Made by a program: the position numbers and the translations under genes
In this document: piece by piece, positions 4,046 to 26,231 of the stretch
How positions within the stretch are numbered: position 1 is the stretch's first letter
Layout of the letters: every line of letters begins with the position of its first letter
Source of the DNA: Streptomyces thermolilacinus SPC6
GTDB lineage: Bacteria > Actinomycetota > Actinomycetes > Streptomycetales > Streptomycetaceae
DNA length: 64,000 nucleotides
NCBI RefSeq assembly: GCF_000478605.2
Contig: NZ_ASHX02000001.1
Span: 4,231,001 to 4,295,000 of the forward strand
Direction of reading: 5' to 3'
Notes under the pieces: model-generated
The model's input: the letters and a program-made list of their open reading frames with translations, nothing else
Told to the model about the DNA's origin: nothing
Database searches by the model: none

Positions 4046-4059
4046 GGAGAGCGCTCCCA
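4046..4059 (-). promoter_or_regulatory. CebR operator in front of bglC
   Basis: TGGGAGCGCTCTCC on the minus strand matches the CebR palindrome TGGGAGCGCTCCCA at 12 of 14 positions. It ends 1-2 bases before the bglC ATG, so it also supplies the Shine-Dalgarno region. Bound repressor here would block elongation or initiation close to the gene. Confidence 0.75.
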
Positions 4060-7819: not shown

Positions 7820-8000
7820 TCTCCACTCTCCTCGTCCAGGGCGGTGGTGCTGGTCGTGCGCCGGGTGGCGGGCGGGGCCATGGCCCGGCGGTCCCGCGCC
7901 CGCTCGCGGGGGCGGGTCTTCCTGATGGATGCGGACGGCGTGCGGCGGCTCGGTCGGGCGCCGGTCGGGCAGGGGGCGGGGTACGCCCGGGAAGAGCTCA

Positions 8001-8014
8001 TGGGAGCGCTCCCA
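8001..8014. promoter_or_regulatory. CebR operator, cebE side
   Basis: Perfect 14-bp palindrome TGGGAGCGCTCCCA, the established CebR binding motif. It lies in the cebE-cebR intergenic region, 182 bases from the cebE start, so the cebE message has a long leader. Confidence 0.92.
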
Positions 8015-8169: not shown

Positions 8170-8183
8170 TGGGAGCGCTCCCA
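8170..8183. promoter_or_regulatory. CebR operator, cebR side
   Basis: Second perfect TGGGAGCGCTCCCA, 156 bases from the other box (centre to centre about 169) and about 95 bases before the cebR start. It fits autoregulation of cebR and possible looping with the first box. Confidence 0.92.
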
Positions 8184-9469: not shown

Positions 9470-10174
9470 ATGGGAGAGCAGACCGTTCCGATCCTGCCGT
9501 GCCGGGACCTCCGTCCCGTCCTCGACTTCTACACCGCCCTCGGCTTCGAGGTGACCTTCCGGCAGCTGAGCCCCAACCCGTACGCCGTCGTGCGCCGGGG
9601 CGGCGTCCAGCTGCACTTCTTCGCCATGCGGCGCTACGAGCCCGCCGAGTCGTACAGCACCTGCCTCGTACGCACCGACGACATCGACGTGCTGCACCGG
9701 GAGTTCCGCGCCGGACTGAAGGCGGCGTACGGGCGGATACCCGCGCGGGGCCTGCCGCGCATCGGGGCGCTGCGCACCGCCTCGCACGGGGTGCGGCAGT
9801 TCCTGATGACCGACCCGGGGGGCAACTGCGTGCGCGTCGCGCAGGGCCTCGGCGGGGACCAGCACCACCGGCCCGCTCCGGAGGGCACGTTCGCCCGCGC
9901 GCTGCACCACGCCGCGCTGTTCGCCGACTCGCGGGAGGACCCGGCCGCCGCGGCTCGCGTCATCGACCGCGCGTTCGCGGCGGCGGAGGAGGAGCCCACG
10001 CCCGTACAGGCGCTGCGGCTGCTCGTGCTGCGCGCCGACGCGGCCCGGCGCCTCGGCGACGAACGCACCGCCGCCGACTGCCTCACGCGGGCGCGGGCCG
10101 TCGGGCTGAGCGGCGCCGAGCGGGAGGAGGTGTACGACGCCCTCCGGCGGCTGGGTGAGCTGCTGGAGGAGTGA
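9470..10174 (+). CDS. VOC-superfamily protein with C-terminal helical extension
   Basis: 234 residues. Residues 1-120 form a glyoxalase/bleomycin-resistance type (VOC) domain (TVPILPCRDLRPVLDFYTALGFEV, then FLMTDPGGNCVRV). The C-terminal half (about 135-234) is Ala/Arg/Glu-rich and helical, with a repeat-like pattern (AALFADSREDPAAAARVIDRA, LRLLVLRADAARRLGDERTAADCL) resembling tetratricopeptide helices. VOC proteins bind metals or small toxic compounds; the substrate here is unknown. No Shine-Dalgarno is visible, but TAGTCT ends about 8 bases before the ATG, so the message may be leaderless. It stands alone after cebR. Confidence 0.85.
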   Translation: MGEQTVPILPCRDLRPVLDFYTALGFEVTFRQLSPNPYAVVRRGGVQLHFFAMRRYEPAESYSTCLVRTDDIDVLHREFRAGLKAAYGRIPARGLPRIGALRTASHGVRQFLMTDPGGNCVRVAQGLGGDQHHRPAPEGTFARALHHAALFADSREDPAAAARVIDRAFAAAEEEPTPVQALRLLVLRADAARRLGDERTAADCLTRARAVGLSGAEREEVYDALRRLGELLEE

Positions 10175-10264
10175 GGGTCCGTGAGGGGCCGCTCGCCCCG
10201 GCTCCGGGGGCGAGCGCCGCTCGGGCGCGCCCGGGGGTGGGTGCCCCTCGGGCGGGCCCGCTGG

Positions 10265-10831
10265 TCAGGGCGCACCGAGCAGTGCCGCCACGGCCGCGCG
10301 GGCGTGGCGGGCCGGGGCCGGGTCGCCGCTGATGCCCGCCGTCACGATCGCCCCCTCGGCGAGGAGGAAGACCGGTTCGGCCACCGGCACCCCCGTGGCG
10401 GCGACCCACTCGGCGATCTGGTCGTGGAACGCCCGCTTGTGCGCGCGGACCTCGGCCAGCACCGCCTGGGAGGAGGAGCCGAGCTCCCCGTGGACGTTGA
10501 CCCAGGCGCACCCCCGGAAGCCGGGCGTCCCGAACCACTCGGCGAGCCAGTCGAAGACCGCGAGCACCCGCTCCCGCGGGTCCTGGACCTGCTCGACGCG
10601 GGCGGCCAGTTCGCCCCTCCACCGCTGGTCGCGCCGCCGGAGCACCGCCACCACCAGGTCCTCCTTCGCCGCGAACATCCGGTAGATCCGCTTCAGCGGC
10701 AGGCCGGACGCCGCGCGCACCTCGTCCATCCCGACGGCCTGGATGCCCCGCTCGTAGAAGAACCGCTCGGCCGTGTCGAGCAGCGCCTCGCGGTCCAGGC
10801 GGTTCTGCTCCTCGGTGATCGGGGCCGGCAT
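10265..10831 (-). CDS. TetR-family transcriptional regulator
   Basis: 188 residues with the TetR DNA-binding domain at 14-60 (ALLDTAERFFYERGIQAVGMDEV, then SGLPLKRIYRMFAAKEDLV) and a helical ligand-binding part. It is divergent from a DUF1348 gene, and two inverted repeats sharing half-sites GAACG/CGTTC sit between them. That layout points to repression of both genes and release by an unknown small molecule. Confidence 0.92.
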   Translation of the reverse strand: MPAPITEEQNRLDREALLDTAERFFYERGIQAVGMDEVRAASGLPLKRIYRMFAAKEDLVVAVLRRRDQRWRGELAARVEQVQDPRERVLAVFDWLAEWFGTPGFRGCAWVNVHGELGSSSQAVLAEVRAHKRAFHDQIAEWVAATGVPVAEPVFLLAEGAIVTAGISGDPAPARHARAAVAALLGAP

Positions 10832-10849
10832 CCGGGGCTCCTTGACGTA

Positions 10850-10863
10850 GAGAACGATCGTTC
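10850..10863. promoter_or_regulatory. TetR-type operator 1
   Basis: Contains the perfect 12-bp palindrome GAACGATCGTTC (10852-10863), 21 bases upstream of the TetR start. Its half-sites are the same as in operator 2. Confidence 0.75.
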
Positions 10864-10885
10864 CCTACCTTAGTCCGCACCAGTG

Positions 10886-10901
10886 GAGAACGAGCGTTCT
10901 C
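10886..10901. promoter_or_regulatory. TetR-type operator 2
   Basis: GAGAACG-AG-CGTTCTC: two perfect 7-bp arms around 2 bases, about 20 bases before the GTG of the DUF1348 gene. Same GAACGnnCGTTC core as operator 1; the two centres are 36 bases apart. Confidence 0.75.
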
Positions 10902-10920
10902 TACATCTCGGGAGGTCACC

Positions 10921-11382
10921 GTGCCGGAAGATCGTCCGCCGTACCCGCCGTTCGACCGGGAGTCGGCCCTGCGGAAGGTCCAGGCCGCCGAGGACGCGTG
11001 GAACACCCGCGACCCGAGGCGCGTGGCGCTCGCCTACACACCGGACTCGGTGTGGCGGAACAGGGACGTGTTCCTCCAGGGCCGAGAGGAGATCGTCGCC
11101 TTCCTGACCCGCAAGTGGGAGCGGGAGCGGGACTACGCGCTCCGCAAGAGCCTGTGGGCGTTCGACGGCGACCGGATCGCCGTCCGCTTCCAGTACGAGT
11201 GGCGCGACGCGGACGACCAGTGGTGGCGCAGCTACGGCAACGAGCTGTGGGAGTTCGACGAGCGCGGCCTCATGCGGCGCCGCGAGGCGAGCATCAACGA
11301 CACCGCCATCGCCGAGGCCGACCGGCGCATCCACGGCCCCCGGCGCGCGGACGAGCACGGGACCGACATCCCGCTCCGGTAG
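10921..11382 (+). CDS. NTF2-like protein, DUF1348 family
   Basis: 153 residues from a GTG with GGGAGG upstream. The whole protein matches the DUF1348 pattern of the NTF2-like fold ([52 protein letters not shown]). Members are small alpha/beta-cone proteins whose reaction is not settled. It is divergently paired with a TetR gene and probably induced when that repressor is released. No membrane or export signal. Confidence 0.88.
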
Positions 11383-11412
11383 CGCCCGCCTGCGCCCCCG
11401 CCCCGAGCTCCC

Positions 11413-11475
11413 GTTCCCGCGCCGGGCCGCCCCGTTCCCGCGCCGGGCCGCCCCGTTCCCGCGCCGGGCCGCCCC
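11413..11475. repeat. Three perfect 21-bp tandem repeats
   Basis: The unit GTTCCCGCGCCGGGCCGCCCC occurs three times in direct succession (11413, 11434, 11455) in the gap after the DUF1348 gene and about 45 bases before the insertion sequence. Noncoding as far as can be seen; it may act as a terminator region. Confidence 0.9.
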
Positions 11476-11541
11476 GCTCCCGGCCGCGTGGCCGGGGAGG
11501 GGGGCCGGGACACGACCTAGGGCGTCTCTTTCGGATCATGC

Positions 11542-11877
11542 CTAAACGGCGTCGTCCTCCGCGCGCACCCAGATCAGCTGCGCGTCGCTCAGCGGGGGGT
11601 CGAACCCTTCCGGGAACATCAGCATCAGTGGTTGCGGCCACATGCTCTCGGGCCCGTGCTCTTGGCAGTGCAGGGCGATGACATGCGGCCCTTCCCCACA
11701 GGACTCGTGCCAGTAGGGGCGGTCATGGGCCTGGCAGAAGTACCCGAACCTGTAGCAGCTGTCCTCATTGCTCGGCTCGTAGAAGCCGGGATCACGGACG
11801 ATCTGGGTTACCGGCTCCTGCCGATTGAACCGGGGGATGGGCCGGGGATCACGCCACAGCAGTCGGGGAGGAAGCAC
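11542..11877 (-). CDS. IS passenger: small Cys/His-rich protein of unknown function
   Basis: 111 residues from a GTG at 11877 with AGGA 8-10 bases upstream. I do not recognise the family. Cysteines at 41, 48, 60 and 71 alternate with histidines at 51, 57, 65, 70 and 74, which suggests a bound metal such as zinc; the end (LMLMFPEGFDPPLSDAQLIWV) looks like a folded hydrophobic part. The stop codon lies only a few bases inside the left terminal repeat, just as the transposase stop overlaps the right repeat, so the element is packed end to end. Codon use is less GC-biased than in host genes, which fits foreign origin. It could be a gene picked up by the element. Confidence 0.6.
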   Translation of the reverse strand: MLPPRLLWRDPRPIPRFNRQEPVTQIVRDPGFYEPSNEDSCYRFGYFCQAHDRPYWHESCGEGPHVIALHCQEHGPESMWPQPLMLMFPEGFDPPLSDAQLIWVRAEDDAV

Positions 11878-11895
11878 GAGCTCATCCTGTACCGA

Positions 11896-11915
11896 GGCCG
11901 TCCCGTTCGGATCAC
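11896..11915. repeat. Internal third copy of the IS end
   Basis: GGCCGTCCCGTTCGGATCAC matches the right terminal repeat (reverse complement of 12775-12794) at 17 of 20 positions and has the same orientation as the left end. It lies 19 bases before the transposase start, where the left end of an ordinary IS of this group would be. It suggests a left end that was moved outward or duplicated around the passenger gene. Confidence 0.65.
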
Positions 11916-11933
11916 CGGGTCGTTGGTCCGGTC

Positions 11934-12778
11934 ATGTCGTTGACTGATGTGCAGTGGCCGCGGATCGAGCCGCTGCTTCCGGACGGGACTCAGCGACGTG
12001 GCGGGCGGTGGCGTGATCACCGGCAGGTGATCGAGGCGATCGCCTGGAAGTACCGGACGGGCTCGCCCTGGGAGGACATGCCCTCCGAGTCCGGTTCGTG
12101 GAAGGGCGTCTACACCCGCTTGCGGAAGTGGGCGCTCGACGGCGCCTGGGAGCGGGTGTTCACCGCTCTGCTCGCCCAAGCGGACGCCGACGGGGATCTC
12201 GGTTGGGTCGTCGCGGTCGACTCAACTGTCGTCCGCGCCCATCAGCACGCTGCCGGCGCCCGTAAGAAGGGGCTCTGGCCGGCGAGCCAGAAGACCATGC
12301 CCTCGGCCGTTCCCGTGGCGGACTGACCACCAAGGTCCACTTGGCGGCGGACGACCGCTGTCGGCCTCCCGCTTTCGTGCTGACCCCCGGACAGGCAGGT
12401 GACGCACCCGCATTTGAACGGGTCATGGCCACAATCCGGGTGCCTCGCCCACTCGGGCGGCCTCGGGTGAGACCGGCCATGGTCCTGGCGGACAAAGCCT
12501 ATTCCCCCCGCGCGATCCGTGATCACCTCCGCAGACGCGGCATCCGGGCCGTCATCCACCAGTCCTCCGGCCCGATGGCCAGCCGAAAGCGTCGAGGCCG
12601 CCACGGCGGAAGGCCGCCGGGCTTCGACAAGGCTGCCGACAGGCAGCCGAACACCGTGGAACGGTGCATGAACAAAGCTCAAGAGTGGCGCGGCCTTGCC
12701 ACCCGATACGACAAGACCGCGACCATCTACCAGGCCGGCCTGCACCTCGCGGGCATCCTCATCCGGGCCGCGCGGTGA
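11934..12778 (+). CDS. IS5-family DDE transposase, two frames joined by -1 frameshift
   Basis: The first frame (11934-12326) opens with MSLTDVQWPRIEPLLPD and carries the first catalytic Asp in VAVDSTVVRAH. The second (continuing to 12778) carries the second Asp in MVLADKAYS and the Glu in NTVERCMNK. A shift of -1 near 12269-12275, at AAGAAGGGG, gives the continuous reading ARKKGALAGEPEDHALGRSR and then GGLTTKVHLAAD, which is the usual sequence of this family. So the enzyme is probably made by programmed frameshifting, as in many IS427-group elements; a plain inactivating mutation cannot be excluded. All three catalytic residues are kept. Confidence 0.85.
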
Positions 12779-12793
12779 TCCGAAAGAGACCGC

Positions 12794-13177
12794 CTAGGCG
12801 GGACGCGCGTACGGGCGCGTGATGATCTCCATGTTGTGCCCGTCGGGGTCGTCGAAGTACGCGCCCCGGCCGCCGAAGAGGCGGTTGATCCGGCCGGGCT
12901 CGGTGTGGTGCGGGTCGGCGTAGTACGTCACGCCCGCCGCCTGCAGCCGGTCGATCATCGTGTCGAACTCCTCGTCCGGCACGAGGAACGCGTAGTGCTG
13001 CGACGCGACGGGACCTTCGGCGGCGTAGAAGTCCAGCGTCACGCCGTTGCCCGTGTCCACGGGGATGAACGGCCCGAACGGCGCGCCCACCTCCAGCCCG
13101 AGGACTCCGGCGAGGAACTCGGCGGACGCCTGCTTGTCGGAGGCGTGGACGACGGTGTGGTTGAGATCAGCGGTCAA
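12794..13177 (-). CDS. VOC-superfamily (glyoxalase/dioxygenase-like) protein
   Basis: 127 residues from a TTG at 13177 with GGAG 6 bases upstream. A single VOC domain of the paired beta-alpha-beta-beta-beta type: NHTVVHASDKQASAEFLAGVLGL at the start and AYFDDPDGHNMEIITRPY at the end, with candidate metal ligands His7, His62 region and Glu in NMEII. Substrate unknown; relatives are often annotated as bleomycin-resistance or lactoylglutathione lyase-like. Its TAG stop lies exactly in the CTAG flanking the IS right end, so the insertion just spared or re-created the stop codon. Confidence 0.88.
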   Translation of the reverse strand: MTADLNHTVVHASDKQASAEFLAGVLGLEVGAPFGPFIPVDTGNGVTLDFYAAEGPVASQHYAFLVPDEEFDTMIDRLQAAGVTYYADPHHTEPGRINRLFGGRGAYFDDPDGHNMEIITRPYARPA

Positions 13178-13403
13178 GGAACACTCCAGGACTGGGCAGG
13201 GGTATGGATGTCAGCGGCGGCGCGCTTCCGCATGCGCGCGCGGCATCCCGGCGGGCCCCTGGCCCACCCGGCCCTCACGAAGAGGCCGGGGACTTCCCTC
13301 GCTCATGGCCCATGGCCGACCCGGCAGTCACCCGTCGACCCTAACCACCCCGGCCGCCCCGCACCACGTGTTTCCAGCCGACATCGCGGCATGGTTGGGG
13401 CCC

Positions 13404-13457: not shown

Positions 13458-15218
13458 TCAGAGCGCCGGGTGGGCGTTCTTCAGCAGCTCCTGGAACTGG
13501 GCCGAGAACCAGTGGCCCGAGATGGGCGCGTCCGGCAGGGCGCCCGACATGTTGTTGTTGTTCCGCGGGTTGCCCGGGTACGTCGGGTCGCACATCCGGT
13601 CGAAGCCCTTGCCCTCGGTGTTCGGGATGGGCTTGCTCGACCCGTCGGACTCGCCCGGGGGCTTCATCCACACGTACGCGTCGATGCCCGGCTCCGGGTT
13701 GGCCCGGGGCCGCTCGCCGAGACCCGCGCCGGCCTGGTTGCACCAGTTGCCGAGGTGGATGCGACGGTCGTAGCGGCCGCCGTCCACGTACGCGTCGACG
13801 CTCGTCGTCGCGCCCGGGCCGCTGGGCCGGGCCGTGCCGCCCCAGCCGTTGCGGGACGTGTCGATGAGCATGCCGAGCTTCGGGTCGAAGCCGATGCGCA
13901 CCAGCTCGTTGCGCATGGCCTGCGCGTACGACAGCTCGTCCGTGTACCGGTTCCAGTCGATCCACTTGGAGGTGCGCACCGACTGGCCGTTGACCGTGTC
14001 GTTGACGGTGAAGTGGTCCTCCTTCAGGGCGCTGTAGTTGGCCGTGTTGACGATGAAGCCGTGGACGTTGGCGACCGTGGAGCCCTCGGCCGTCGCCGCC
14101 TGCTTGAAGATCTGGGCGGAGGCGCCGAAGTTGTCGTCCCAGCCCAGCCAGCCGTGGTGCCCGGCGTCCACGTAGTTGTAGACGTTCTTGACGGCGCCGA
14201 GCTTGGCCAGCGCGTACCCGACGCCCTTGACGTAGTTGCCGTTCGCCTTCATGACGTCGCAGTTCGGCGTGGCGGTCGGGCGCGGGGTGACGTTCGTGAC
14301 CAGGTTCGGGAGGCTGTCGATCTCGACGGTGGTGACGATCCGCAGGCCCGCGTACTTCGGGTCGGCGAGGATCTGCGCGATCGGGTCGATGTACTCCGTC
14401 TTGTAGCGGTCGATCTCCGTCGGGCCCAGCTCGCCGTTGGAGGCGAGGGCGGCGCAGTCGCGGCCCGGCAGGTTGTAGATGACCAGCTGGATCGCGAGTT
14501 CGCCGTTGCCCTTCTGGCGCAGCGCCTCGTCCAGGTGGTCGCGCAGGCCCATGCCGCCGTTGACGCCGTTGATGGCGGCGATCCGGTCCAGCCAGACACC
14601 CGTGGGCTGGTTGGAGACCTTCGTGCCACCCGGCTCGGCGGCGGCCTTCGCGGACCACTCGGGGTTCACGTACACCTTGGCGCCCGCGTACGGGTTGTCC
14701 ACGCGGTCGCCGACCGGCGGCGGGTCGGTGGGCGGCGGGTCCGTCGGCCCGGTCGCGCCGTTGCAGACGACGCCGTTCAGCTTGAACGTGGCCGGGACGG
14801 CGTTGGTCCCGCTGTACGAGGCGTTGAACCCGAACGTCGCCGACGCGCCGGTCGCGAGCGAGCCGTTCCACGACACGTTCTTCGCGGTGACGGCCGCGCC
14901 GGACTGGGTGATCCCGGCGTTCCAGTGCTGCGTGACCTTCTGGTCGCCGCCGAACGACCACTCCAGCGTCCAGTTGCCGACCGGGTCGCCGGTGTTGGTG
15001 ACGGTGACGTTCGCGCCGAAGCCGTTGCTCCACTGGCTGGTGACCGCGTAGTCCACCTTGCAGCCCGGGGCGGCGGCCCCGGCGGGGGAGGACAGGGCGG
15101 TCGCGGTGGCCCCGGCGGTGGCGATCAGGGTGCAGGCGGCGAGCACGGCCGTCCTGCGGCGGCGCGGAGGGGGTTGGGGGGTGGTGTGGGTGACGGAAGT
15201 GGTGCTGGTGCGGCTCAT
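13458..15218 (-). CDS. Secreted CBM2-GH6 cellobiohydrolase
   Basis: 586 residues. Signal peptide in about 1-50 (RRRR, hydrophobic core, AGAAA). CBM2 at about 53-152 (CKVDYAVTSQWSNGFGANVTV, ending in a Cys). A short PPPTDPPP linker, then a GH6 domain from about 175 to the end. The GH6 signatures are VIYNLPGRDCAALASNGE (Asp254) and VEIDSLPN (Asp301, matching the proton donor Asp221 of fungal Cel6A). Length and loops such as DAGHHGWLGW fit the exo-acting bacterial Cel6B type, which releases cellobiose from non-reducing ends. Divergent from the GH48 gene, which acts from the other end; the two probably synergise. CebR-type boxes lie upstream. Confidence 0.95.
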   Translation of the reverse strand: MSRTSTTSVTHTTPQPPPRRRRTAVLAACTLIATAGATATALSSPAGAAAPGCKVDYAVTSQWSNGFGANVTVTNTGDPVGNWTLEWSFGGDQKVTQHWNAGITQSGAAVTAKNVSWNGSLATGASATFGFNASYSGTNAVPATFKLNGVVCNGATGPTDPPPTDPPPVGDRVDNPYAGAKVYVNPEWSAKAAAEPGGTKVSNQPTGVWLDRIAAINGVNGGMGLRDHLDEALRQKGNGELAIQLVIYNLPGRDCAALASNGELGPTEIDRYKTEYIDPIAQILADPKYAGLRIVTTVEIDSLPNLVTNVTPRPTATPNCDVMKANGNYVKGVGYALAKLGAVKNVYNYVDAGHHGWLGWDDNFGASAQIFKQAATAEGSTVANVHGFIVNTANYSALKEDHFTVNDTVNGQSVRTSKWIDWNRYTDELSYAQAMRNELVRIGFDPKLGMLIDTSRNGWGGTARPSGPGATTSVDAYVDGGRYDRRIHLGNWCNQAGAGLGERPRANPEPGIDAYVWMKPPGESDGSSKPIPNTEGKGFDRMCDPTYPGNPRNNNNMSGALPDAPISGHWFSAQFQELLKNAHPAL

Positions 15219-15650
15219 GGGGGTGGGGTTTCCTCTCTGGGGATGGGAACGCCCCGGCGCCTCGGCGTCACGGCGTTCCGGTGCGGTGGTGCGGTGGTGC
15301 GGTGGTGCTCTGGTGCTCGGTGTCCCGGCGTCGCCGTGGCCCGGTTCCCCGGACGCCCGGGGTCGCCCCGGACGCCCGTGCGGCCCGGTCGCCCGTGGTC
15401 CGGGCGGTCCTGGCGGTCCGGGTGGCCCCGGTCGCCCGTGGGTCCGGGCGGTCCGGGCGGTCAGGCCACGCCCCGTCGGCGCACGGCGGGGCCGTGGCCC
15501 GCGGGGTGCGGGTCTCGGGGGCTGGGCACGGGGATGCCGTCGTAGCCGCCGATCAGCGCGGTACCGGGTGTTTCCAGGGGCGGGCCGGGCCTGGTCGGGA
15601 CCCGGCGCCCTGGCGATCAAGGCGCGTGCATGACAACACGCCGACGGGAA
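15219..15650 (-). other. Long repetitive leader upstream of the GH6 gene, no gene
   Basis: About 430 bases separate the GH6 start from the nearest CebR box. The stretch holds short repeats (GTGCGGTG three or more times near 15290) and then many CCGGNCGCCCG and GGTCCGGGCGG-like units. No convincing coding frame. If the GH6 promoter overlaps the CebR box, this is a long, highly structured 5' leader. Confidence 0.55.
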
Positions 15651-15664
15651 TGGAAGCGCTCCCA
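15651..15664. promoter_or_regulatory. CebR operator in the GH6-GH48 intergenic region, GH6 side
   Basis: TGGAAGCGCTCCCA matches the CebR palindrome at 13 of 14 positions. It lies 433 bases from the GH6 start and 195 bases from the GH48 start. Confidence 0.82.
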
Positions 15665-15783
15665 CTGGTGCCGCCGACCGTAGCGCCGCCCCGCCGTCAG
15701 GCAACAGAGGGTGGGCCGACTTTTTCTTTCGAACTTCTTCGACTCTTCAAGCACCTTGACCCCGCTTCGCCCCCTCCCCATAG

Positions 15784-15797
15784 TGGGAGCGCTCCCA
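15784..15797. promoter_or_regulatory. CebR operator in front of the GH48 gene
   Basis: Perfect TGGGAGCGCTCCCA, 61 bases before the GH48 start, preceded by an AT-richer stretch (TTTTTCTTTCGAACTTCTTC) that could hold the promoter. Confidence 0.92.
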
Positions 15798-15858
15798 CTG
15801 GTTCAAGGCTTGTCACCCCCACCTCCTGCCCCACTGAGCCGCTAGGAGAGACACCCGC

Positions 15859-18780
15859 ATGTCGCCAGGACCACGTACGCGTCACCGGGGCCGGCTGACC
15901 ACCGCCCTGGCCGCGGTCCTCGCCCTTCCCCTGGGCATGACCGCGGCCGCCGAATCCCCCGCCGAGGCACGCGCCGCAGCGGCCGTGCAGTGCGGCGTCG
16001 ACTACAAGACCAACGACTGGGGGTCCGGCTACACCGCCGAGCTGACCCTCACCAACCGGGGCACCGAGCCCATCGACGGCTGGACCCTCCGCTACGACCA
16101 GACCGGCAACCAGCAGCTGACCAACGGCTGGAACGGCACCTGGACCCAGTCCGGCAAGACCGTCACCGTCACCAACACGGGCTGGAACCGGACCGTCGCC
16201 GCGGGCCAGGCGGTCACCACCGGCGCCCAGTTCACCTACAGCGGCGCCAACGCCGCACCCACCACCTTCACCGTCAACGGCACCGTCTGCGGGGCCGCCC
16301 ACCAGCCGCCCATCGCCGTGCTGACCAGCCCCGCGCCCGGCGCCACCTACACCGCCGGGGACCCGGTCCCGCTGGCCGCCACCGCCGCGGCCGCCGACGG
16401 GGCCACCATCGGCAAGGTCGAGTTCTACGACGACACGACCCTGCTCGGCACCGACACGACGTCGCCGTACACCTTCACCGCCCAGGGCCTCGCCCCCGGC
16501 ACCCACTCGCTCTACGCGAAGGCGTACGACAGCCGGGGTGCCGCCGCCGAATCGGCGCCCGTCGGCATCACCGTCGCCGCGGGCCCGGCCCTCGTGGCGA
16601 CCCCGGCCCAGCTCCCCGTACGGCAGGGGCAGTCGGCCACCTTCGACGTGAAGCTCTCCACCCGCCCGGCCGCGAACGTCACGGCCACCGTCGCCCGCAC
16701 CTCGGGCACCACGGCCCTCACCGCCGCCCCCGGGACGCTCACCTTCACGCCGGCCAACTGGAACACCGCCCAGAAGGTGACCGTCACCGCCGCCGCGTCC
16801 GGCACCGGATCGGCGGTCTTCGCCGTGACCGCCCCCGGCCACACGAAGGCGGAGGTCACCGCCACCCAGCTGGACGGCGACTCCACGTACGACGCGCGGT
16901 TCCTGGCCATGCACGCCAAGATCACCGACCCGGCGAACGGCTACTTCTCGCCCGAGGGCATCCCGTACCACTCCGTCGAGACGCTCATCGTCGAGGCGCC
17001 GGACCACGGACACGAGACGACGTCCGAGGCGTACAGCTACCTCATCTGGCTCCAGGCCATGTACGGCAAGGTCACCGGCGACTGGAGCAAGTTCAACGGC
17101 GCGTGGGACACCATGGAGAAGTACATGATCCCCACCCACGCGGACCAGCCGACCAACGACAAGTACAACGCCTCGAAGCCCGCCACCTACGCGCCGGAGC
17201 ACGACCTGCCGTCGCAGTACCCGGCGCGCCTCGACGGCGGCGTCCCGACGGGTTCCGACCCGATCGCCGGTGAGCTGAAGGCCGCGTACGGCACCGACGA
17301 CGTGTACGGCATGCACTGGCTCCAGGACGTGGACAACGTGTACGGCTTCGGCAACGAGCCCGGCAAGTGCTCCGCCGGTCCCTCGGCCACGGGACCGTCG
17401 TACATCAACACCTTCCAGCGCGGCCCGCAGGAGTCCGTCTGGGAGACCGTCACCCACCCGACCTGCGACAACTTCACCTACGGCGGGCCCAACGGCTACC
17501 TGGACCTGTTCACCGGTGACGCCTCCTACGCCAAGCAGTGGAAGTTCACCAACGCCCCCGACGCCGACGCCCGCGCCGTCCAGGCCGCCTACTGGGCCGA
17601 CATCTGGGCCAAGGGGCAGGGCAAGGGCTCCGCGGTCTCCGGCGTCGTCGCCAAGGCCGCCAAGATGGGCGACTACCTGCGGTACTCGTTCTTCGACAAG
17701 TACTTCAAGAAGGCCGGGAACTGCGTCGGCGCCACCACCTGCCCCGCCGGGACCGGCAAGGACAGTGCCCACTACCTGATGTCCTGGTACTACGCCTGGG
17801 GCGGCGCCACCGACACCTCCGCGGGCTGGGCCTGGCGCATCGGCTCCAGCCACGCCCACAGCGGCTACCAGAACCCGCTCGCCGCGTACGCGCTCAGCGA
17901 GTACGCACCGCTGAAGCCCAAGTCGCCGACCGGCGCGCAGGACTGGGCGAAGAGCCTGGACCGGCAGGTCGAGTTCTACCGCTGGCTCCAGTCCGCCGAC
18001 GGCGCCATCGCGGGCGGCGCCACCAACAGCTGGCAGGGCCGCTACGCCACGCCGCCGGCCGGGACGCCCACCTTCTACGGCCTCTTCTACGACGAGAAGC
18101 CCGTCTACCACGACCCGCCGTCCAACCAGTGGTTCGGCTTCCAGGCGTGGTCGATGGAGCGGGTCGCCGAGTACTACCACCAGAGCGGTGACGCCCTCGC
18201 CAAGAGCGTCCTCGACAAGTGGGTGGACTGGGCCCTGTCGGAGACCACCGTCAACCCGGACGGCACGTTCCGCTTCCCGTCCACCCTCCAGTGGTCGGGC
18301 AAGCCCGACACGTGGAACCCGGCGTCGCCGGGCGCCAACGCGGGCCTCCGCGTCACCGTCGCGGACTACACCAACGACGTCGGCGTGGCCGCCGCGTACG
18401 CCAAGACCCTGACGTACTACGCCGCCAAGTCCGGCGACGCGGACGCCAAGCGGGTCGCGAAGGCGCTCCTCGACGGCATGTGGCAGCACCACCAGGACCC
18501 GCTGGGCATCGCCGTCCCGGAGACCCGCGCCGACTACAACCGGTTCGACGACCCGGTGCACGTGCCGAGCGGCTGGACCGGCGTCATGCCGAACGGCGAC
18601 CGGATCGACTCCACGTCCACGTTCGCCTCGATCCGCTCCTTCTACCAGGACGACCCCGCCTGGTCGAAGGTCGAGGCCTACCTGAAGGGCGGCGCCGCGC
18701 CGGTCTTCACGTACCACCGCTTCTGGGCGCAGGCGGACATCGCCCTCGCCATGGGTTCGTACGCGGAGCTTCTCGAATAG
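15859..18780 (+). CDS. Secreted CBM2-GH48 reducing-end cellobiohydrolase
   Basis: 973 residues from an ATG with AGGAGAG 8 bases upstream. Signal peptide in 1-38; CBM2 at about 42-148 ([22 protein letters not shown]); an Ig-like module at about 150-240 ([19 protein letters not shown]); a second beta-sandwich module at about 245-338; then GH48 from about 345 to the end. GH48 catalytic landmarks are [13 protein letters not shown], with Glu379 and Glu390 corresponding to Glu44 and Glu55 of clostridial CelF (Glu55 being the acid). The family processively cuts cellulose from reducing ends and is usually the most abundant enzyme of bacterial cellulolytic sets. Probably CebR-controlled. Confidence 0.96.
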
Positions 18781-18807
18781 CCCCGCGCTGACTCCGCGTA
18801 CGTCACC

Positions 18808-18841
18808 AGCCGGGTGGGCCGCGCCCGTGGCCCACCCGGCT
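18808..18841 (+). terminator. Terminator after the GH48 gene
   Basis: AGCCGGGTGGGCC pairs perfectly with GGCCCACCCGGCT (13 bp, 8-base loop), 28 bases past the GH48 stop and before the GH74 gene. Confidence 0.8.
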
Positions 18842-18947
18842 TCCGTCTGCGTACGACCGCACGCCCGGCGCATCCCGTACGCGCGCGCCCTCGTACGCCC
18901 CGCACGTCCCCGTGACGCCCTCGTCGTCCCCCTCCGAGAGGAGCACC

Positions 18948-21623
18948 GTGCGCACGAAGTGGAACCTGTTCACCGGACTGGCCCTGGCGGCCGCCCTGCT
19001 CACCGCCGCCCCGCCCCCGGCCGCCGAGGCCAAGCCCCCACCGGCCCCCGCCCCCGCGCCGCTCGCCGCCGACACGTACGCCTGGAAGAACGTGCGCATC
19101 GACGGCGGCGGCTTCGTCCCCGGCATCGTCTTCAACCGCTCCGAGAAGAACCTCGCCTACGCCCGCACCGACATCGGCGGCGCCTACCGCTGGCAGCAGT
19201 CCACCAAGACGTGGACGCCGCTGCTCGACCACATCGGCTGGGACCGCTGGGGCCACACGGGCGTCGTCAGCCTCGCCACCGACGCGGTGGACCCCGACCG
19301 CGTGTACGCCGCCGTCGGCACGTACACCAACAGCTGGGACCCCGGCAACGGCGCCGTCCTGCGCTCGACCGACCGGGGCGCGACCTGGCGGACCGCCGAC
19401 CTGCCGTTCAAGCTCGGCGGCAACATGCCGGGCCGCGGCATGGGAGAGCGCCTCGCCGTCGACCCGCACCGCAACAGCGTCCTCTACCTCGGCGCGCCCA
19501 GCGGCCACGGCCTGTGGCGCTCCACCGACTCCGGCGCCACCTGGTCGAAGGTCACCGCCTTCCCCAATCCCGGGAACTACGCCCAGGACCCGTCCGACAC
19601 CAGCGGTTACTCCTCCGACAACCAGGGCATCGTCTGGGTCACCTTCGACGAGTCCACCGGCACGCCCGGCAACGCCACGAGGACCATCTACGTGGGCGTC
19701 GCCGACAAGGAGAACGCCGTCTACCGCTCCACCGACGCGGGCGCCACCTGGACCAGGCTGCCCGGACAGCCCACCGGGCTCCTCGCCCACAAGGGCGTCC
19801 TCGACGCGGTGAACGGTCGGCTGTACCTGGCGTACAGCGACACCGGCGGCCCGTACGACGGTACGGACGGCGCGGTCTGGCGGTACGACACGAAGACAGG
19901 CGCCTGGCGGGACATCACGCCCGACGCCGACCCGTACTACGGCTTCAGCGGCCTGAGCCTGGACCGGCAGCGGCCCGGCACCGTCATGGTGACCGGCTAC
20001 AGCTCCTGGTGGCCCGACACGCAGATCTTCCGGACCTCCGACAGCGGGGCGACCTGGACCCGGGCGTGGGAGTTCACCTCGTACCCCAGCCGCACCAACC
20101 GCTACACGATGGACGTGTCCTCCTCCCCGTGGCTGGGATGGGGCGCGCAGCCGTCGCCGCCCGAGGAGTCCCCGAAGCTCGGCTGGATGACGGAGGCCCT
20201 GGAGATCGACCCGTTCGACTCGAACCGGATGATGTACGGCACCGGGGCGACCGTCTACGGCACCGAGAACCTCACCCAGTGGGACACCGGCGGAAAGATC
20301 ACCATCAAGCCGATGGTCCAGGGCCTGGAGGAGACGGCCGTCAACGACCTGGTGTCCCCGCCGTCCGGCGCCCCGCTGATCAGCGCGCTCGGCGACATCG
20401 GCGGCTTCCGCCACACGGACCTCACCAAGGTCCCGTCGGTGATGTTCACCTCCCCGAACTTCACCAGCTCCACCAGCCTCGACTACGCGGAGGCCAAGCC
20501 GGACACGGTCGTCCGCGTCGGGCACCTCGACTCGGGCCCGAGGATCGCGTTCTCCACGGACAACGGCGCCAACTGGTTCGCCGGGCAGGAGCCACCGGGC
20601 GTCTCGGGCGGCGGCACGGTCGCCGCGGCGGCGGACGGCAGCCGGTTCGTGTGGAGCCCGGACGGGACCGGGGTGCACACGACGAGCGGCTTCGGCGGCG
20701 CGTGGACCGCGTCGCGCGGCATCCCGGCGGGCGCCGTCGTGGAGTCCGACCGGGTGGACCCGAAGCGGTTCTACGGCTTCAAGTCCGGGACGTTCTACGT
20801 CAGTACGGACGGCGGCGCGACCTTCACCGCCGCGGCGACCGGCCTGCCCGCCTCGGGACCCGTCCGCTTCAAGGCGGTGCCCGGCCGGGCCGGTGACATC
20901 TGGCTCGCGGGCGGCGCCACCGGCTCGTACGGGCTGTGGCGCTCCACCGACGCGGGCGCCACGTTCACGAAGGTCCGGGGCGTGGAGGAGGCCGACACGA
21001 TCGGCTTCGGCAAGGCCGCGCCGGGCGCGTCGTACGACACGCTCTACACGAGCGCGAAGATCGGCGGCGTACGCGGCATCTTCCGCTCCACGGACGAGGG
21101 CGCGAGCTGGACGCGGATCAACGACGACGCCCACCAGTGGGGCTGGACCGGCGCTGCCATCACGGGCGACCCGCGGATCTACGGGCGGGTGTACGTCGCC
21201 ACGAACGGCCGGGGCATCGTCTACGGCGACACGGCCGGCACGCCCACGGACCCGCCGGGCCCCACGGACCCGCCGGGCCCCACGGACCCGGCGTCGTGCG
21301 AGGCCACGTACAAGGTGACCAACCAGTGGCAGGGCGGCTTCCAGGCCGATGTGACGGTCAGGAACACCGGCTCGGCCGCCTGGGACGGCTGGCGCGCCGG
21401 ATGGACGTTCCCCGACGGGCAGCGCGTCACCCAGGGCTGGAACGCCGAGTACGCCCAGGCGGGCGCGGACGTGGCCGTCACCAACGCGGGCTGGAACGGG
21501 CGGGTCGCGCCGGGCGGGACGGTCGCGTTCGGGTTCACCGGATCGTGGTCGGAGGCCAACAGGCCCCCGACCACGATCAGCGTGAACGGCCGTCCCTGCC
21601 AGGCGGGGACTACGGGGTCGTGA
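18948..21623 (+). CDS. Secreted GH74-CBM2 xyloglucanase
   Basis: 891 residues from a GTG at 18948; GAGAGGAG sits 4-5 bases upstream, better than the in-frame ATG 36 bases earlier. Signal peptide in about 1-30. The catalytic part (about 45-780) is built from sialidase-like repeats with Asp-box motifs (STDSGATW, STDAGATW, STDGGATF). The two GH74 catalytic aspartates are Asp75 in RTDIGGAY and Asp483 in LGDIGGFR. A TDPPGP linker leads to a C-terminal CBM2 (about 790-885, CEATYKVTNQWQGGFQADVTV). GH74 enzymes cut the glucan backbone of xyloglucan. No CebR box was found directly upstream. It overlaps the convergent PL11 gene tail to tail. Confidence 0.95.
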   Translation: MRTKWNLFTGLALAAALLTAAPPPAAEAKPPPAPAPAPLAADTYAWKNVRIDGGGFVPGIVFNRSEKNLAYARTDIGGAYRWQQSTKTWTPLLDHIGWDRWGHTGVVSLATDAVDPDRVYAAVGTYTNSWDPGNGAVLRSTDRGATWRTADLPFKLGGNMPGRGMGERLAVDPHRNSVLYLGAPSGHGLWRSTDSGATWSKVTAFPNPGNYAQDPSDTSGYSSDNQGIVWVTFDESTGTPGNATRTIYVGVADKENAVYRSTDAGATWTRLPGQPTGLLAHKGVLDAVNGRLYLAYSDTGGPYDGTDGAVWRYDTKTGAWRDITPDADPYYGFSGLSLDRQRPGTVMVTGYSSWWPDTQIFRTSDSGATWTRAWEFTSYPSRTNRYTMDVSSSPWLGWGAQPSPPEESPKLGWMTEALEIDPFDSNRMMYGTGATVYGTENLTQWDTGGKITIKPMVQGLEETAVNDLVSPPSGAPLISALGDIGGFRHTDLTKVPSVMFTSPNFTSSTSLDYAEAKPDTVVRVGHLDSGPRIAFSTDNGANWFAGQEPPGVSGGGTVAAAADGSRFVWSPDGTGVHTTSGFGGAWTASRGIPAGAVVESDRVDPKRFYGFKSGTFYVSTDGGATFTAAATGLPASGPVRFKAVPGRAGDIWLAGGATGSYGLWRSTDAGATFTKVRGVEEADTIGFGKAAPGASYDTLYTSAKIGGVRGIFRSTDEGASWTRINDDAHQWGWTGAAITGDPRIYGRVYVATNGRGIVYGDTAGTPTDPPGPTDPPGPTDPASCEATYKVTNQWQGGFQADVTVRNTGSAAWDGWRAGWTFPDGQRVTQGWNAEYAQAGADVAVTNAGWNGRVAPGGTVAFGFTGSWSEANRPPTTISVNGRPCQAGTTGS

Positions 21624-23493
21624 CCGCGGGCCGGGGTGCCGTGCGCATCCCGGCCCCGATGTGGAAGCTCGGGTGCGGCGGCTGGTTGTAGCCGGTGTTC
21701 TGCCAGGCCAGCCCCGTCCGGTACATCGGGTCGTGCAGCAGGGTCGTGATCCTCGTGTCCGTCGGATGCGGGGTCGAGTAGATCCGCAGCGCCCGGTTGT
21801 CGGCCGTGCGCCACACGACCTCCTCGCGCCAGTCGCCGAGGATGTCGCCGGAGAGGGCCGGGGTCGCCTTGGAGCCGTTGTTGGCGGCGACCCCGGCGCC
21901 GGTCAGCAGCCGCGTGTCACCGCTCGGCCCGTACTTGTCCACGCGGGTGCCGTCGAGCAGCTCGCGCGTCGGGTCGCCGTCCCACCAGGCGAGGAAGTTC
22001 ACCGCCGACGGGCGGCGGCCCTTCACCGCCCCGGCCTCGTCGCGGATGCTGCCGCCGGACGTGGACCACACCTCGGCGCCGTCGTTGCCGGACCAGATGT
22101 CCCCGGCGACGCCGCGCCCGTTGTCGCAGCAGGCGGCGAGCTTCCAGCGGATCGCGCCGTTGGCCGGGTTGATGTACAGCTCGGCGGGCTGGCTGGTGGA
22201 CTCAGACACCTTGAAGTACTCCAGGCCCGGCGTGCCCGGGTCGTGGTCGCCGAGGTGCTGGGCGTCTCCGTGCCCGGTGCGGGTCGTCCACAGGCCGCTG
22301 CCGTTGTCGTCCACGGCCATGGAGCCGTACACGACCTCGTCGCGCCCGTCGCCGTCCACGTCGCCGACGGACAGGCTGTGCGACCCCTGCCCGTCGAAGC
22401 CCCTGCCCGCGTGGGCGGAGGAGTTCGTGTCGAACGTCCAGCGGCGGGTGAACCGCCCGTCGCGCCAGTCCCAGGCGGCGATGACGCTGCGCGTGTAGTA
22501 GCCGCGCGCCATGATCAGCGACGGCCGGACGCCGTCGAGGTAGGCGGTGCCCGCGAGGAACCGGTCCACGCGGTTGCCGTAGGAGTCTCCCCAGGAGGAG
22601 ACGCTGCCGCGGGCGGGCACGTAGTCGGTGGTGCCGAGCGCGGCGCCGGTGCGCCCGTCGAACATGGTCAGGTACTCGGGCCCGGCCAGCACGTACCCGC
22701 CGGAGTTGCGGTGGTCGGCGGTGGCGCTGCCGATGACGCGCCCGGTGCCGTCGCGGGTGCCGTCGGCGGTCTTCATGGCCACCTCGGCGCGCCCGTCGCC
22801 GTCGTAGTCGTACACCTGGAACTGCGTGTAGTGCGCCCCGGAGCGGATGTTCCGCCCGAGGTCGATCCGCCACAGCCGCGTGCCCTCCACCGTGACCCCG
22901 TCCACGACGGTGCTCCCGGTGTAACCCGCCTGGGAGTTGTCCTTGGCGTTGGTGGGCTGCCACTTGAGGACGAAGTCGAGGTCGCCGTCGCCGTCGAGGT
23001 CGCCGACGGAGGCGTCGTTGGCCTCGTACGTGTAGGCGGCGCCGTCCGGCGTGGTGCCCCCGGCGGGCGGGGTGAGCGGTACGTCCTTGTACCCGGCGCG
23101 GAACTGGACGGCGTGCGGCGAGTCGCCCTGCTCGACGCCGCCGACGACGGCCCGGACGGTGTAGCCGGCGTGGCTGGGGGCGCCCGCGTGGAAGTAGTTG
23201 GTGGAGCCGGTGATGGGCGTGGCGTTCACCTTCGTACCGGCGCGGTAGAGGTTGAAGGCCACGTTGTCGGGGTCGGTGGCGAGCCAGCGCCAGCTGACGA
23301 GGTTGCCGGTCCCGGTGTGGACGCTGACGAGTCCCCGGTCGAGCCGCTCGACCTGCCGGACGGCGAGCGCGGTGGCGCCGGCGCCCGAGGCGGCGGCGTC
23401 CGAGGCGTCGGCGGGGAGCCCGACGAACACGAACGCGGCGGCCCCGGCGACCGCGACGGCGCCGAGCCCGCGGCGCGTCTTCCTGTGCTGCAC
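21610..23493 (-). CDS. Secreted rhamnogalacturonan lyase, family PL11
   Basis: 627 residues. GTG at 23493 chosen because a perfect AGGAGG lies 7 bases upstream. Signal peptide in about 1-33 (GAVAVAGAAAFVFVGLPADA). The mature protein has the PL11 eight-bladed propeller layout with repeated calcium-binding loops DLDGDGDLDF, DYDGDGRAEV and DVDGDGRDEV, and conserved blocks ERLDRGLVSVHTGTGNLVSWRW at the start and GDWREEVVWRT near the end. Related to Bacillus YesW/YesX, which cleave rhamnogalacturonan I of pectin. There is no CBM. The last 14 bases overlap the GH74 gene end. Confidence 0.94.
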   Translation of the reverse strand: MQHRKTRRGLGAVAVAGAAAFVFVGLPADASDAAASGAGATALAVRQVERLDRGLVSVHTGTGNLVSWRWLATDPDNVAFNLYRAGTKVNATPITGSTNYFHAGAPSHAGYTVRAVVGGVEQGDSPHAVQFRAGYKDVPLTPPAGGTTPDGAAYTYEANDASVGDLDGDGDLDFVLKWQPTNAKDNSQAGYTGSTVVDGVTVEGTRLWRIDLGRNIRSGAHYTQFQVYDYDGDGRAEVAMKTADGTRDGTGRVIGSATADHRNSGGYVLAGPEYLTMFDGRTGAALGTTDYVPARGSVSSWGDSYGNRVDRFLAGTAYLDGVRPSLIMARGYYTRSVIAAWDWRDGRFTRRWTFDTNSSAHAGRGFDGQGSHSLSVGDVDGDGRDEVVYGSMAVDDNGSGLWTTRTGHGDAQHLGDHDPGTPGLEYFKVSESTSQPAELYINPANGAIRWKLAACCDNGRGVAGDIWSGNDGAEVWSTSGGSIRDEAGAVKGRRPSAVNFLAWWDGDPTRELLDGTRVDKYGPSGDTRLLTGAGVAANNGSKATPALSGDILGDWREEVVWRTADNRALRIYSTPHPTDTRITTLLHDPMYRTGLAWQNTGYNQPPHPSFHIGAGMRTAPRPAVTTP

Positions 23494-24104: not shown

Positions 24105-24181
24105 TGGGGTGAGTGACGGGACTCGAACCCGCGGCATCCTGGACCACAACCAGGTGCTCTACCAGCTGAGCTACACCCACC
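24105..24181 (-). tRNA. tRNA-His (anticodon GTG)
   Basis: Cloverleaf visible on the minus strand: acceptor GTGGGTG with CACTCAC, D arm AGCTCAGCTGGTAGAGC, anticodon stem-loop CCTGG-TTGTGGT-CCAGG with anticodon GTG, and T arm with GGTTCGAGTC. The extra G at -1 (24181) opposite C73 is the hallmark of tRNA-His. CCA is encoded (24105-24107). tRNA genes are common integration sites; no direct repeat of the 3' end was noticed nearby. Confidence 0.96.
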
Positions 24182-24317: not shown

Positions 24318-24929
24318 CTAGGCGCGGGGCTCCGGCGGGAGGACGTGGCGGGCCGCGATGGTCTTCGCCGTGTCCGAGTCCGGGCCGGGCTGCGGGACGA
24401 AGATCGCCTCCCGGTAGTACCGCAGCTCCGCGATGGACTCGCGGATGTCGGAGAGCGCCCGGTGGTTGCCGTTCTTCTCCGGACTGTTGAAGTACGCCCT
24501 CGGGTACCAGCGCCGCGCCAGCTCCTTCACGGAGGAGACGTCCACGATCCGGTAGTGGAGGAACGTCTCCAGCGTGGGCATGTCACGGGCGAGGAAGCCG
24601 CGGTCGGTGCCGACCGAGTTGCCGCACAGCGGGGCCTTGCCGGGCTCCTTGACGTGCTCGCGGACGTACGCCATGACCTGCGCCTCCGCGTCCGCGAGGG
24701 TGGTGCCGCCCGCGAGCTCGTCGAGGAGTCCGGAGGCCGTGTGCATCTCGCGCACCACGTCCGGCATCGTCTCCAGCGCCGCGTCCGGCGGGCGGATGAC
24801 GATGTCCACGCCCTGCCCGAGCACGTTCAGTTCCGAGTCGGTGACCAGCGCGGCCACCTCGATGAGTGCGTCGGACGTCAGCGAGAGGCCGGTCATCTCG
24901 CAGTCGATCCACACCATGCGATCGTTCAT
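24318..24929 (-). CDS. orn: Oligoribonuclease
   Basis: 203-residue 3'-5' exonuclease of the DEDDh class that degrades 2-5 nt RNA fragments (and pGpG from cyclic di-GMP). Catalytic residues: Asp9 and Glu11 in WIDCEMTG, the Asp in NSVGTDRGF, and the closing His/Asp in [15 protein letters not shown] at 24929 has AAGGTGG upstream. It follows adpA on the same strand, the known adpA-ornA order in streptomycetes, separated by an 87-base gap filled by a strong stem-loop. In S. griseus loss of ornA impairs growth and aerial mycelium formation. Confidence 0.96.
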
Positions 24930-25016: not shown

Positions 25017-26231
25017 TTACGGCGCGCTGCGCTGGCCCGGCAGCGTCGCCCGGCCGGACGTCAGCGCGTCCATGTGCGGCTTGCCCGGCTCACCGCCGCC
25101 CATCCCGGCCGCGGCGCCCGCCGTGGGGCGTCGCAGGCCGGGCCCGTGGCCACCGGGTCCACCGTGCGAGCCCTGCGGCGGTACGACCGCGTCGCTCATC
25201 GCCGACGCCCCCTCGCCCTGCGGGCGGCGCGCCCGGTACGCGGCCCGGTACGCGGCCGGGGACGAGCCCAGCTGCCGCCGGAAGTGGCCGCGCAGCGCCA
25301 CCGGCGAACGGAAGCCGCAGCGTCCGGCGACCTCGTCCACCGAGTAGTCGGACGTCTCCAGCAGCCGCTGCGCCTGGAGCACCCGCTGGGTGATCAGCCA
25401 CTGGAGCGGCGCGCTGCCGGTCAGCGAGCGGAACCTCCGGTCGAAGGTCCGCCGGCTCATGTACGCCCTGGCCGCCAGCGTCTCCACGTCGAACTGCTCG
25501 TGGAGGTGCTCCAGCGCCCACGCGACGACCTCGGCCAGCGGGTCGGCGCCGATCTCCTCCGGGAGGGACCGGTCGAGGTACCGCTCCTGGCCGCCGGTGC
25601 GGCGCGGTGGCACGACGAGCCGCCGGGCGAGCGCGCCGGCCGCCTCCGTGCCGTGATCGGTCCGCACGATGTGCAGACAGAGGTCGATTCCGGCCGCCGT
25701 GCCCGCGGACGTCAGTACGTCGCCGTCGTCCACGAACAGCTCCCGCGGGTCCACATGGACCGACGGGTAGCGCTTCGCGAGCGTCGGCGCGTACATCCAG
25801 TGGGTGGTGGCGGGCCGCCCGTCCAGTAATCCGGCGGCGGCCAGCACGAACGCACCCGTGCACAGGCCGACGATCCTGGCGCCCTCCTCGTGTGCGCGGC
25901 GCAGCGCGTCGAGCGCCTCGGCGGGCGGCGGCGAGGTGATCGACCGCCAGGCCGGTACGACGACGGTGCCCGCTCTGCTGATCGCCTCCAGGCCGTACGG
26001 TGCGGAGAGTTCGAGTCCCCCGGTCGTGCGCAGTGGCCCGTCCTCGCCCGCGCAGACCAGCAGCCTGTATCGCGGGACTCCGGCGTCCTGGCGGTCAATC
26101 CCGAACACCGAAAGTGGGATGGAACTCTCGAAGATGGGGCCGCCGCTGAACAGCATGACGGCGACGACCTCGCGACGGCGGCGTCCGGACAGTTTGCGTC
26201 CGGTCTCCGGTGCGGCGGAGTCCTGGCTCAT
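25017..26231 (-). CDS. adpA: Developmental master regulator AdpA (BldH)
   Basis: 404 residues. Residues about 20-215 form a DJ-1/PfpI-like dimerisation domain (VVAVMLFSGGPIFESSIPLSVF, GLCTGAFVLAAAGLLDG) and about 235-335 an AraC-type double helix-turn-helix (FDVETLAARAYMSRRTFDRRFR, then VDEVAGRCGFRSPVALRGHF). The tail is Gly/Pro-rich. This order, the length and the orn neighbour identify AdpA. Codon 135 is the rare TTA, so full-length AdpA needs the bldA tRNA. AdpA activates genes for aerial growth, secreted enzymes and secondary metabolism through TGGCSNGWWY sites and controls its own gene. Upstream is an unusually long 1.1 kb gap. Confidence 0.96.
   Translation of the reverse strand: MSQDSAAPETGRKLSGRRRREVVAVMLFSGGPIFESSIPLSVFGIDRQDAGVPRYRLLVCAGEDGPLRTTGGLELSAPYGLEAISRAGTVVVPAWRSITSPPPAEALDALRRAHEEGARIVGLCTGAFVLAAAGLLDGRPATTHWMYAPTLAKRYPSVHVDPRELFVDDGDVLTSAGTAAGIDLCLHIVRTDHGTEAAGALARRLVVPPRRTGGQERYLDRSLPEEIGADPLAEVVAWALEHLHEQFDVETLAARAYMSRRTFDRRFRSLTGSAPLQWLITQRVLQAQRLLETSDYSVDEVAGRCGFRSPVALRGHFRRQLGSSPAAYRAAYRARRPQGEGASAMSDAVVPPQGSHGGPGGHGPGLRRPTAGAAAGMGGGEPGKPHMDALTSGRATLPGQRSAP
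25827..25829 (-). other. TTA leucine codon in adpA (bldA checkpoint)
   Basis: In-frame TTA at codon 135 of adpA, in AAGLLDG. TTA is very rare in Streptomyces and is read only by the bldA tRNA. TTA-dependent adpA translation is an established control step in other species. Confidence 0.93.

Follow-up and report, generated by a model that had tools for sequence, protein, structure and literature searches.

In Streptomyces sp. SirexAA-E the cellulases are repressed by CebR and are released when cebR is deleted (PMC4898821), and several non-orthologous types of the cebR-cebEFG-bglC gene set are already recognised, namely scab, reti, gris and ceb2 (PMC9953190, PMC10714786). Both the enzymes and the CebR regulon have been described in S. 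scabies and SirexAA-E, as has the two-box cassette in which GH6 faces away from GH48 and GH74 follows GH48; what is unusual in the DNA analysed here is their linkage. We analysed 64,000 nucleotides of Streptomyces thermolilacinus SPC6 (contig NZ_ASHX02000001.1, positions 4,231,001 to 4,295,000; hereafter the window), in which a ceb operon, its repressor gene cebR and the genes for four polysaccharide-degrading enzymes (GH6, GH48, GH74 and PL11) lie beside tRNA-His, ornA and adpA. We propose, with a probability of roughly 0.78, that the locus is an almost complete cellulose-utilisation system under CebR control whose gene order is old, and that the arrangement is probably better read as ancestral and retained than as a new island.

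The genes are ordered bglC-cebGFE / cebR > ... < GH6 - GH48 > GH74 > < PL11 - tRNA-His - ornA - adpA (Table 1). A LacI-family repressor thus adjoins cebEFG-bglC, as in the CebR/CelR regulons, and the divergent GH6 and GH48 genes with paired CebR boxes and GH74 downstream constitute the CBM2 cellulase cassette of Streptomyces. An earlier note on this DNA, made from the sequence without database searches, had placed the four enzyme genes together near cebEFG-bglC-cebR, which Pfam and solved-structure matches confirm, and the end point that it gave, 23493, is the start of the PL11 gene. It had also listed five CebR boxes, calling those at 15651 and 15784 perfect or near-perfect; the boxes at 8001, 8170 and 15784 are perfect, the one at 15651 has a single mismatch, and the box at 4046 is weaker, with two mismatches. 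Taking the CebR operator as the 14-bp TGGGAGCGCTCCCA, we found seven perfect sites in the 6.45-Mb genome, against none for the reversed control and about 0.03 expected under an order-4 Markov model trained on the window. All seven lie at cellulose-use genes, those in the window at cebE, cebR and GH6/GH48, and the others beside a GH5-FN3-CBM2 gene, a GH9-like gene, a further GH6 gene and a GH5 gene, which were identified by eye from their translations and not by profile search. When up to two mismatches are allowed, the genome holds 42 sites and the control 51, which is background level, and the box at 4046 is credible only because 56 of 72 bglC homologues also have, in their upstream region, a box with no more than two mismatches (shuffled mean, 5.4 mismatches). 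The recognition segment of CebR, GVGRGT.SRVINGSPRVS, is almost invariant among nearly all CebR relatives compared. The operator thus stands above chance upstream of both uptake and cellulase genes, as in a CebR/CelR regulon. A single linked regulon of depolymerisation, uptake and hydrolysis, as the earlier note had proposed, is plausible from the sequence because the boxes occur far above chance at cebE, cebR and GH6/GH48 and, weakly, at bglC; it is not wholly linked, since four of the seven perfect boxes lie elsewhere. PL11 is unboxed.

To gauge how rare the linkage is, we surveyed the 20 kb that flank ornA at its 3' end in 80 genomes drawn evenly from Streptomyces. Five of these have a GH6, GH48, GH74 or PL11 gene within that distance; G006, from which GH48 has been lost, is the only one with cellulases in the interval from cebR to ornA. 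The contrast drawn in the earlier note, with the cellulases of other species lying elsewhere, therefore holds, and the synteny comparison of the cebR-ornA interval that it had suggested shows that, within Streptomyces, most relatives do not share the arrangement. The cebR gene does occur near ornA and adpA in other species, as the note had stated, but that cebR usually belongs to a different ceb lineage. Outside the survey, S. ficellus keeps the complete order, with an additional CBM2-GH5 gene between GH6 and GH48. We also assembled 80 GH48 loci from named genomes, 68 of them with room on both sides: cebR stands beside the cassette in 17 of the 68, only one of which also has ornA, and most of the remaining loci consist of the cassette without ceb genes. 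Away from the linked loci, GH48 is usually separated from ornA by megabases and mostly found towards the chromosome ends. GH48 and ornA are 0.2-5.2 Mb apart in 22 contiguous cases; 18 of these have the unlinked GH48 within the outer fifth of the contig, and three have ornA there. A limited search of the literature, which does not prove absence, found no description of cebR with ornA or of such a linked cellulase cluster, nor of a ceb type tied to both the cassette and the ornA-linked order.

Relatives outside this sample carry the evidence on the direction of change. The neighbouring genus g7 stands next to Streptomyces in the rpoB tree (support 100/99), and in all six of its GH48 loci that were fetched GH48 lies beside tRNA-His-ornA-adpA, with cebR upstream within the 20 kb in five. 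The early-branching Streptomyces G043 has the order bglC-cebFE-cebR-GH6-GH48-tRNA-His-ornA, and GH48 lies near ornA in the same orientation in S. sparsogenes (~17 kb) and in G096 (~9 kb). The GH48 tree matches the rpoB tree, with g7, G043 and the sparsogenes/G096 branch diverging successively. The remaining loci form two clades, the first holding the window together with the loci linked to ceb genes, the second 49 loci that are unlinked. Because g7 and the early Streptomyces share order and orientation, and because the GH48 phylogeny agrees with that of the species, the cebR...GH48-tRNA-His-ornA linkage is most simply taken as ancestral and its dispersal as derived. Parsimony restricted to orthologous GH48 genes prefers linkage in the common ancestor of g7 and Streptomyces, with three changes against four at equal costs and four against 8-14 when gains cost 2-5 times as much as losses, and linkage in this ancestor is preferred in 999 of 1000 bootstrap trees. 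One genome, G047, was dropped as support for ancestral linkage and excluded from the parsimony rerun, since its GH48 belongs to another type in the GH48 tree; that gene lies directly behind cebR with a box of its own (L227, 2221-3991), apparently a separate, convergent linkage. The order would accordingly predate the split between Streptomyces and g7; in most Streptomyces the cellulase cassette would have moved away, usually towards the arms, and the ceb operon on the ornA side is of another lineage; the window and S. ficellus would keep everything together. The idea of a newly assembled island was not borne out, since g7 and the early Streptomyces already have this order. The GH48 tree also places a record titled Microtetraspora glauca NRRL B-3735 (L021) inside Streptomyces, near the S. 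hydrogenans-like sequences; the record is possibly misnamed or mixed.

Several observations weigh against an ancient and retained locus. At equal costs the parsimony margin is a single step and the Streptomyces ancestor is tied. GH74 and PL11 are absent from the ornA locus in both g7 and G043, so the full set is younger than the core, with these two genes joining later. The window is not an unchanged copy of the ancestor, because it lacks the CBM2-GH5 gene of S. ficellus, and a linkage of this kind can arise more than once, since the other GH48 type of G047 is also linked to cebR. The history of the ceb operon is not simply vertical, because the CebF and CebR trees show several lineages. Finally, the box search in the window found no CebR box for PL11, and GH74 has none of its own there. 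In a different history, an arm-located cassette was inserted between cebR and ornA in the common ancestor of three lineages (the window species, S. ficellus and G006), which created a new linked regulon. This would suit both the tie at the Streptomyces ancestor, which could equally have been unlinked, and the restriction of the full set to those three lineages. We regard it as unlikely. The core order recurs with its orientation in g7, G043, S. sparsogenes and G096, the GH48 genes of the window and S. ficellus are not nested in the 49-member arm clade, and the cassette would have had to insert several times at a single site and always the same way round.

The ceb genes tell a more complicated story. 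In the CebF and CebR trees the window groups with S. ficellus, G006, g7 and the cassette-linked venezuelae-like and katrae-like loci (our working labels for sets of named records that cluster in the trees), with support from the Shimodaira-Hasegawa-like approximate likelihood ratio test of 99 for CebF and 95 for CebR. The ornA-adjacent operons of most Streptomyces fall outside this group, and the operon of the window is not one of them; CebE identity between the two groups is mostly 45-50%. Both lineages occur in some species, for example S. bambusae and APSN-46.1, and they stand side by side at ornA in G006 and S. ficellus. In six Streptomyces loci (L107, L110, L139, L142, L144 and L159) bglC and cebF, beside ornA, have a cebR gene on either side. 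Where S. scabiei CebE has A73 and M123, the window protein apparently carries F and A, as in the reti type, and it differs at other positions (alignment by eye against PMC10714786).

The grouping of CebF and CebR with g7, and not with the usual ornA-adjacent Streptomyces operons, together with the presence of two ceb lineages at once in several species, could also be explained if the cluster, or its ceb part, had been acquired by horizontal transfer from a donor resembling g7 and had become established at ornA. The GH48 gene of the window speaks against such an origin, as it lies deep inside Streptomyces in the GH48 tree and far from g7. The composition is not foreign, with 72.4% guanine plus cytosine inside the island, equal to its surroundings (71.9-74.0%), and no attachment repeat was found; the search for a repeat of the tRNA 3' end at the far edge gave only a 15-bp match at 44518, which is on the opposite side of the tRNA and not within a tRNA gene. 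The earlier note had the block stop at tRNA-His, and the position is correct, but it marks no island boundary: the tRNA is a constant neighbour that abuts ornA in all 80 sampled genomes, and an island bounded by it was ruled out. We consider transfer improbable. Within the retained-locus reading, a tentative possibility is that the window preserves, in its ceb operon and CebR, the original cello-oligosaccharide system of the Streptomyces lineage, linked to cellulases and inherited with GH48 at ornA; in most species other ceb lineages with an unchanged operator would have taken its place there, and the distant cellulases would have come under a different CebR while their sites remained unchanged.

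The cellulase and ceb genes could also be neighbours without full joint control. Only the boxed genes might respond to CebR, with PL11, and perhaps GH74, as passengers, and besides the missing boxes of these two genes the ~4 kb of unrelated, non-cellulose genes between cebR and GH6 would favour this. We consider such partial control rather unlikely. In the window GH74 lies behind GH48 on the same strand, and no terminator-like site was found between them. Where GH48 is absent, GH74 is boxed: in G006 the GH48 promoter and CebR box stand directly before GH74 (L103, box 4697 from ornA), which from the sequence is a promoter handed on to GH74 by deletion, and the orphan GH74 genes of the venezuelae-like clade carry a perfect box. 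The flanks of the orphan boxes differ from the GH48 promoter, which rules them out as relics of a lost GH48 promoter and leaves G006 as the only case of fusion. Because it is boxed where GH48 is absent, and follows GH48 in the same direction with no sign of a terminator between them, GH74 is probably a CebR target. Membership of PL11 in the regulon is unsupported, since it has no box.

The GH48 promoter itself suggests how repression might work. CTTGAC and CA..aTGGGAGCGCTCCCA are aligned across 80 GH48 loci, with CTTGAC and the operator in register. All 78 GH48 upstream regions compared contain a perfect CebR box, and in 43 of them it is accompanied by a TGGAA[CG]CGCTCCCA box 132-164 bp further upstream. 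The overlap of promoter and operator fits a repressor that would cover the -10 element and the start site. In the absence of cellobiose CebR would sit on its palindromes, and at 15784 it would block RNA polymerase at the GH48 promoter because the box begins at the last base of the -10 element; for the divergent GH6 gene the operator would be the box at 15651, which would also aid repression. Basal amounts of the secreted GH6 (an exo-cellulase), GH48 (acting from the other chain end) and GH74 (acting on xyloglucan) would release cellobiose, which CebE would bind, CebFG would import with an ATPase encoded elsewhere, and BglC would split. The sugar, judging from the response of published relatives, would free CebR, and the cellulase, uptake and hydrolase genes would then open together. 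These regulatory claims draw on sequence and on the published relatives.

Table 1. Features of the ceb-cellulase-ornA locus (positions in the window).
Feature	Position	Strand	Evidence or remark
bglC, GH1 beta-glucosidase (start approximate)	2596..4010	-	Pfam Glyco_hydro_1 + TIGR03356
Degenerate CebR box upstream of bglC	4046..4059		GGAGAGCGCTCCCA, 2 mismatches
cebG, ABC permease	4305..5153	-	BPD_transp_1
cebF, ABC permease (start approximate)	5157..6150	-	BPD_transp_1; cellulase-linked lineage in CebF tree
cebE, lipoprotein cello-oligosaccharide-binding protein	6467..7822	-	SBP_bac_8; S. scabiei CebE structure 8bfy 2e-111
Perfect CebR box	8001..8014		179 bp upstream of cebE start
Perfect CebR box	8170..8183		95 bp upstream of cebR start
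cebR, LacI-family repressor	8279..9307	+	LacI + Peripla_BP_3 domains; cellulase-linked CebR lineage
Non-cellulose genes	9470..13210		Glyoxalase/Ble-like (+), TetR (-), DUF1348 (+), FosA-like glyoxalase (-)
GH6 exo-cellulase, N-terminal CBM2	13458..15218	-	Pfam; beta-1,4-exocellulase 4b4f 4e-195
Near-perfect CebR box	15651..15664		TGGAAGCGCTCCCA, 1 mismatch
GH48 promoter-like TTGACC-17-CATAGT	15756..15784	+	Last base is first base of perfect box
Perfect CebR box	15784..15797		62 bp upstream of GH48 start
GH48 cellobiohydrolase (CBM2, Ig-like domains, GH48)	15859..18780	+	Pfam; 4jjj 4e-258
GH74 xyloglucanase, C-terminal CBM2 (GTG start inferred)	18948..21623	+	Xyloglucanases 5jwz/6p2o; CBM2 Pfam
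PL11 rhamnogalacturonan lyase	21610..23493	-	RGL11_C 3e-231; nearest solved structure 4cag
tRNA-His(gtg), fixed ornA neighbour	24105..24180	-	Beside ornA in 80/80 genomes
ornA, oligoribonuclease	24318..24929	-	RNase_T
adpA, AraC-type regulator	25017..26231	-	HTH_18 + DJ-1_PfpI

Some further features of the locus and its surroundings may be recorded here. The cebR gene, divergent from cebE, is recognisable only as a portion of a long open reading frame, and the 3' ends of PL11 and GH74 overlap by 14 nt. The glyoxalase, TetR and DUF1348 genes behind cebR look lineage-specific, because none of them was found in the corresponding gap of the S. ficellus or G006 loci. Upstream of GH6 lies a 433-nt leader (15219-15650) with GC-rich tandem repeats at 15280-15462; it occupies the place where S. 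ficellus has its CBM2-GH5 gene, and a GH5 relic between GH6 and GH48 was ruled out, as no GH5 catalytic remnant was seen. Beside bglC, at 847-2349, is a gene for a CBM2 protein related to the solved exochitinase 9buf (3e-174) and not a cellulase. A sister palindrome of the CebR operator, TGAGAGCGCTCTCA, has four copies in the same genome (C1:610170, 614396, 85423 and 354322), one of them 74 bp before a second CebE-like match (614470, 48% identical), which suggests another LacI-controlled sugar operon.

The enzymes themselves are ordinary, and the locus consists mostly of known parts. If our reading is correct, the scattered cellulose regulon of Streptomyces would be a locus that was broken up, and not a set recruited piece by piece, and the two-box operator would have outlived the break-up. 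The locus would then offer a testable case of how a regulon is maintained when its genes disperse and its repressor is exchanged. The CebR and CebE lineages that lie beside cellulases, which may be uncharacterised, would also be useful in the choice of cellulolytic strains.

Among described systems, the closest is the trio scab17001-17011-17021 of S. scabies (PMC5332605), which comprises the same GH6-CBM2, GH48-CBM2 and GH74-CBM2 enzymes as the window. As in the window, the adjacent GH6 and GH48 genes of S. scabies share a perfect box and a TGGAA.CGCTCCCA box, and GH74 has no box of its own (PMC5332605); the imperfect box of the window is one base nearer the consensus than that of S. scabies. 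The S. scabies cassette is listed apart from its ceb operon (scab57721-57761, PMC5332605), whereas the two are ~4 kb apart in the window. SirexAA-E has the same operator TGGGAGCGCTCCCA, but its cebR (SACTE_2285) and GH6 (SACTE_0237) are ~2000 locus tags apart (PMC4898821), unlike those of the window. The ceb gene set of the window is the same as in the published types, and its cebR points away from cebE, an arrangement shared with the scab and reti types (PMC9953190, PMC10714786); its CebE is only ~45-50% identical to that of the usual ornA-adjacent operons. More distantly, CelR of Thermobifida fusca and the CelR-like systems of other actinobacteria, in the part of the description available to us (PMC3377646), likewise place a LacI repressor beside a cellobiose transporter and a beta-glucosidase, with its palindrome upstream of cellulases; that part of the description reports no cellulase genes joined to the ornA neighbourhood.

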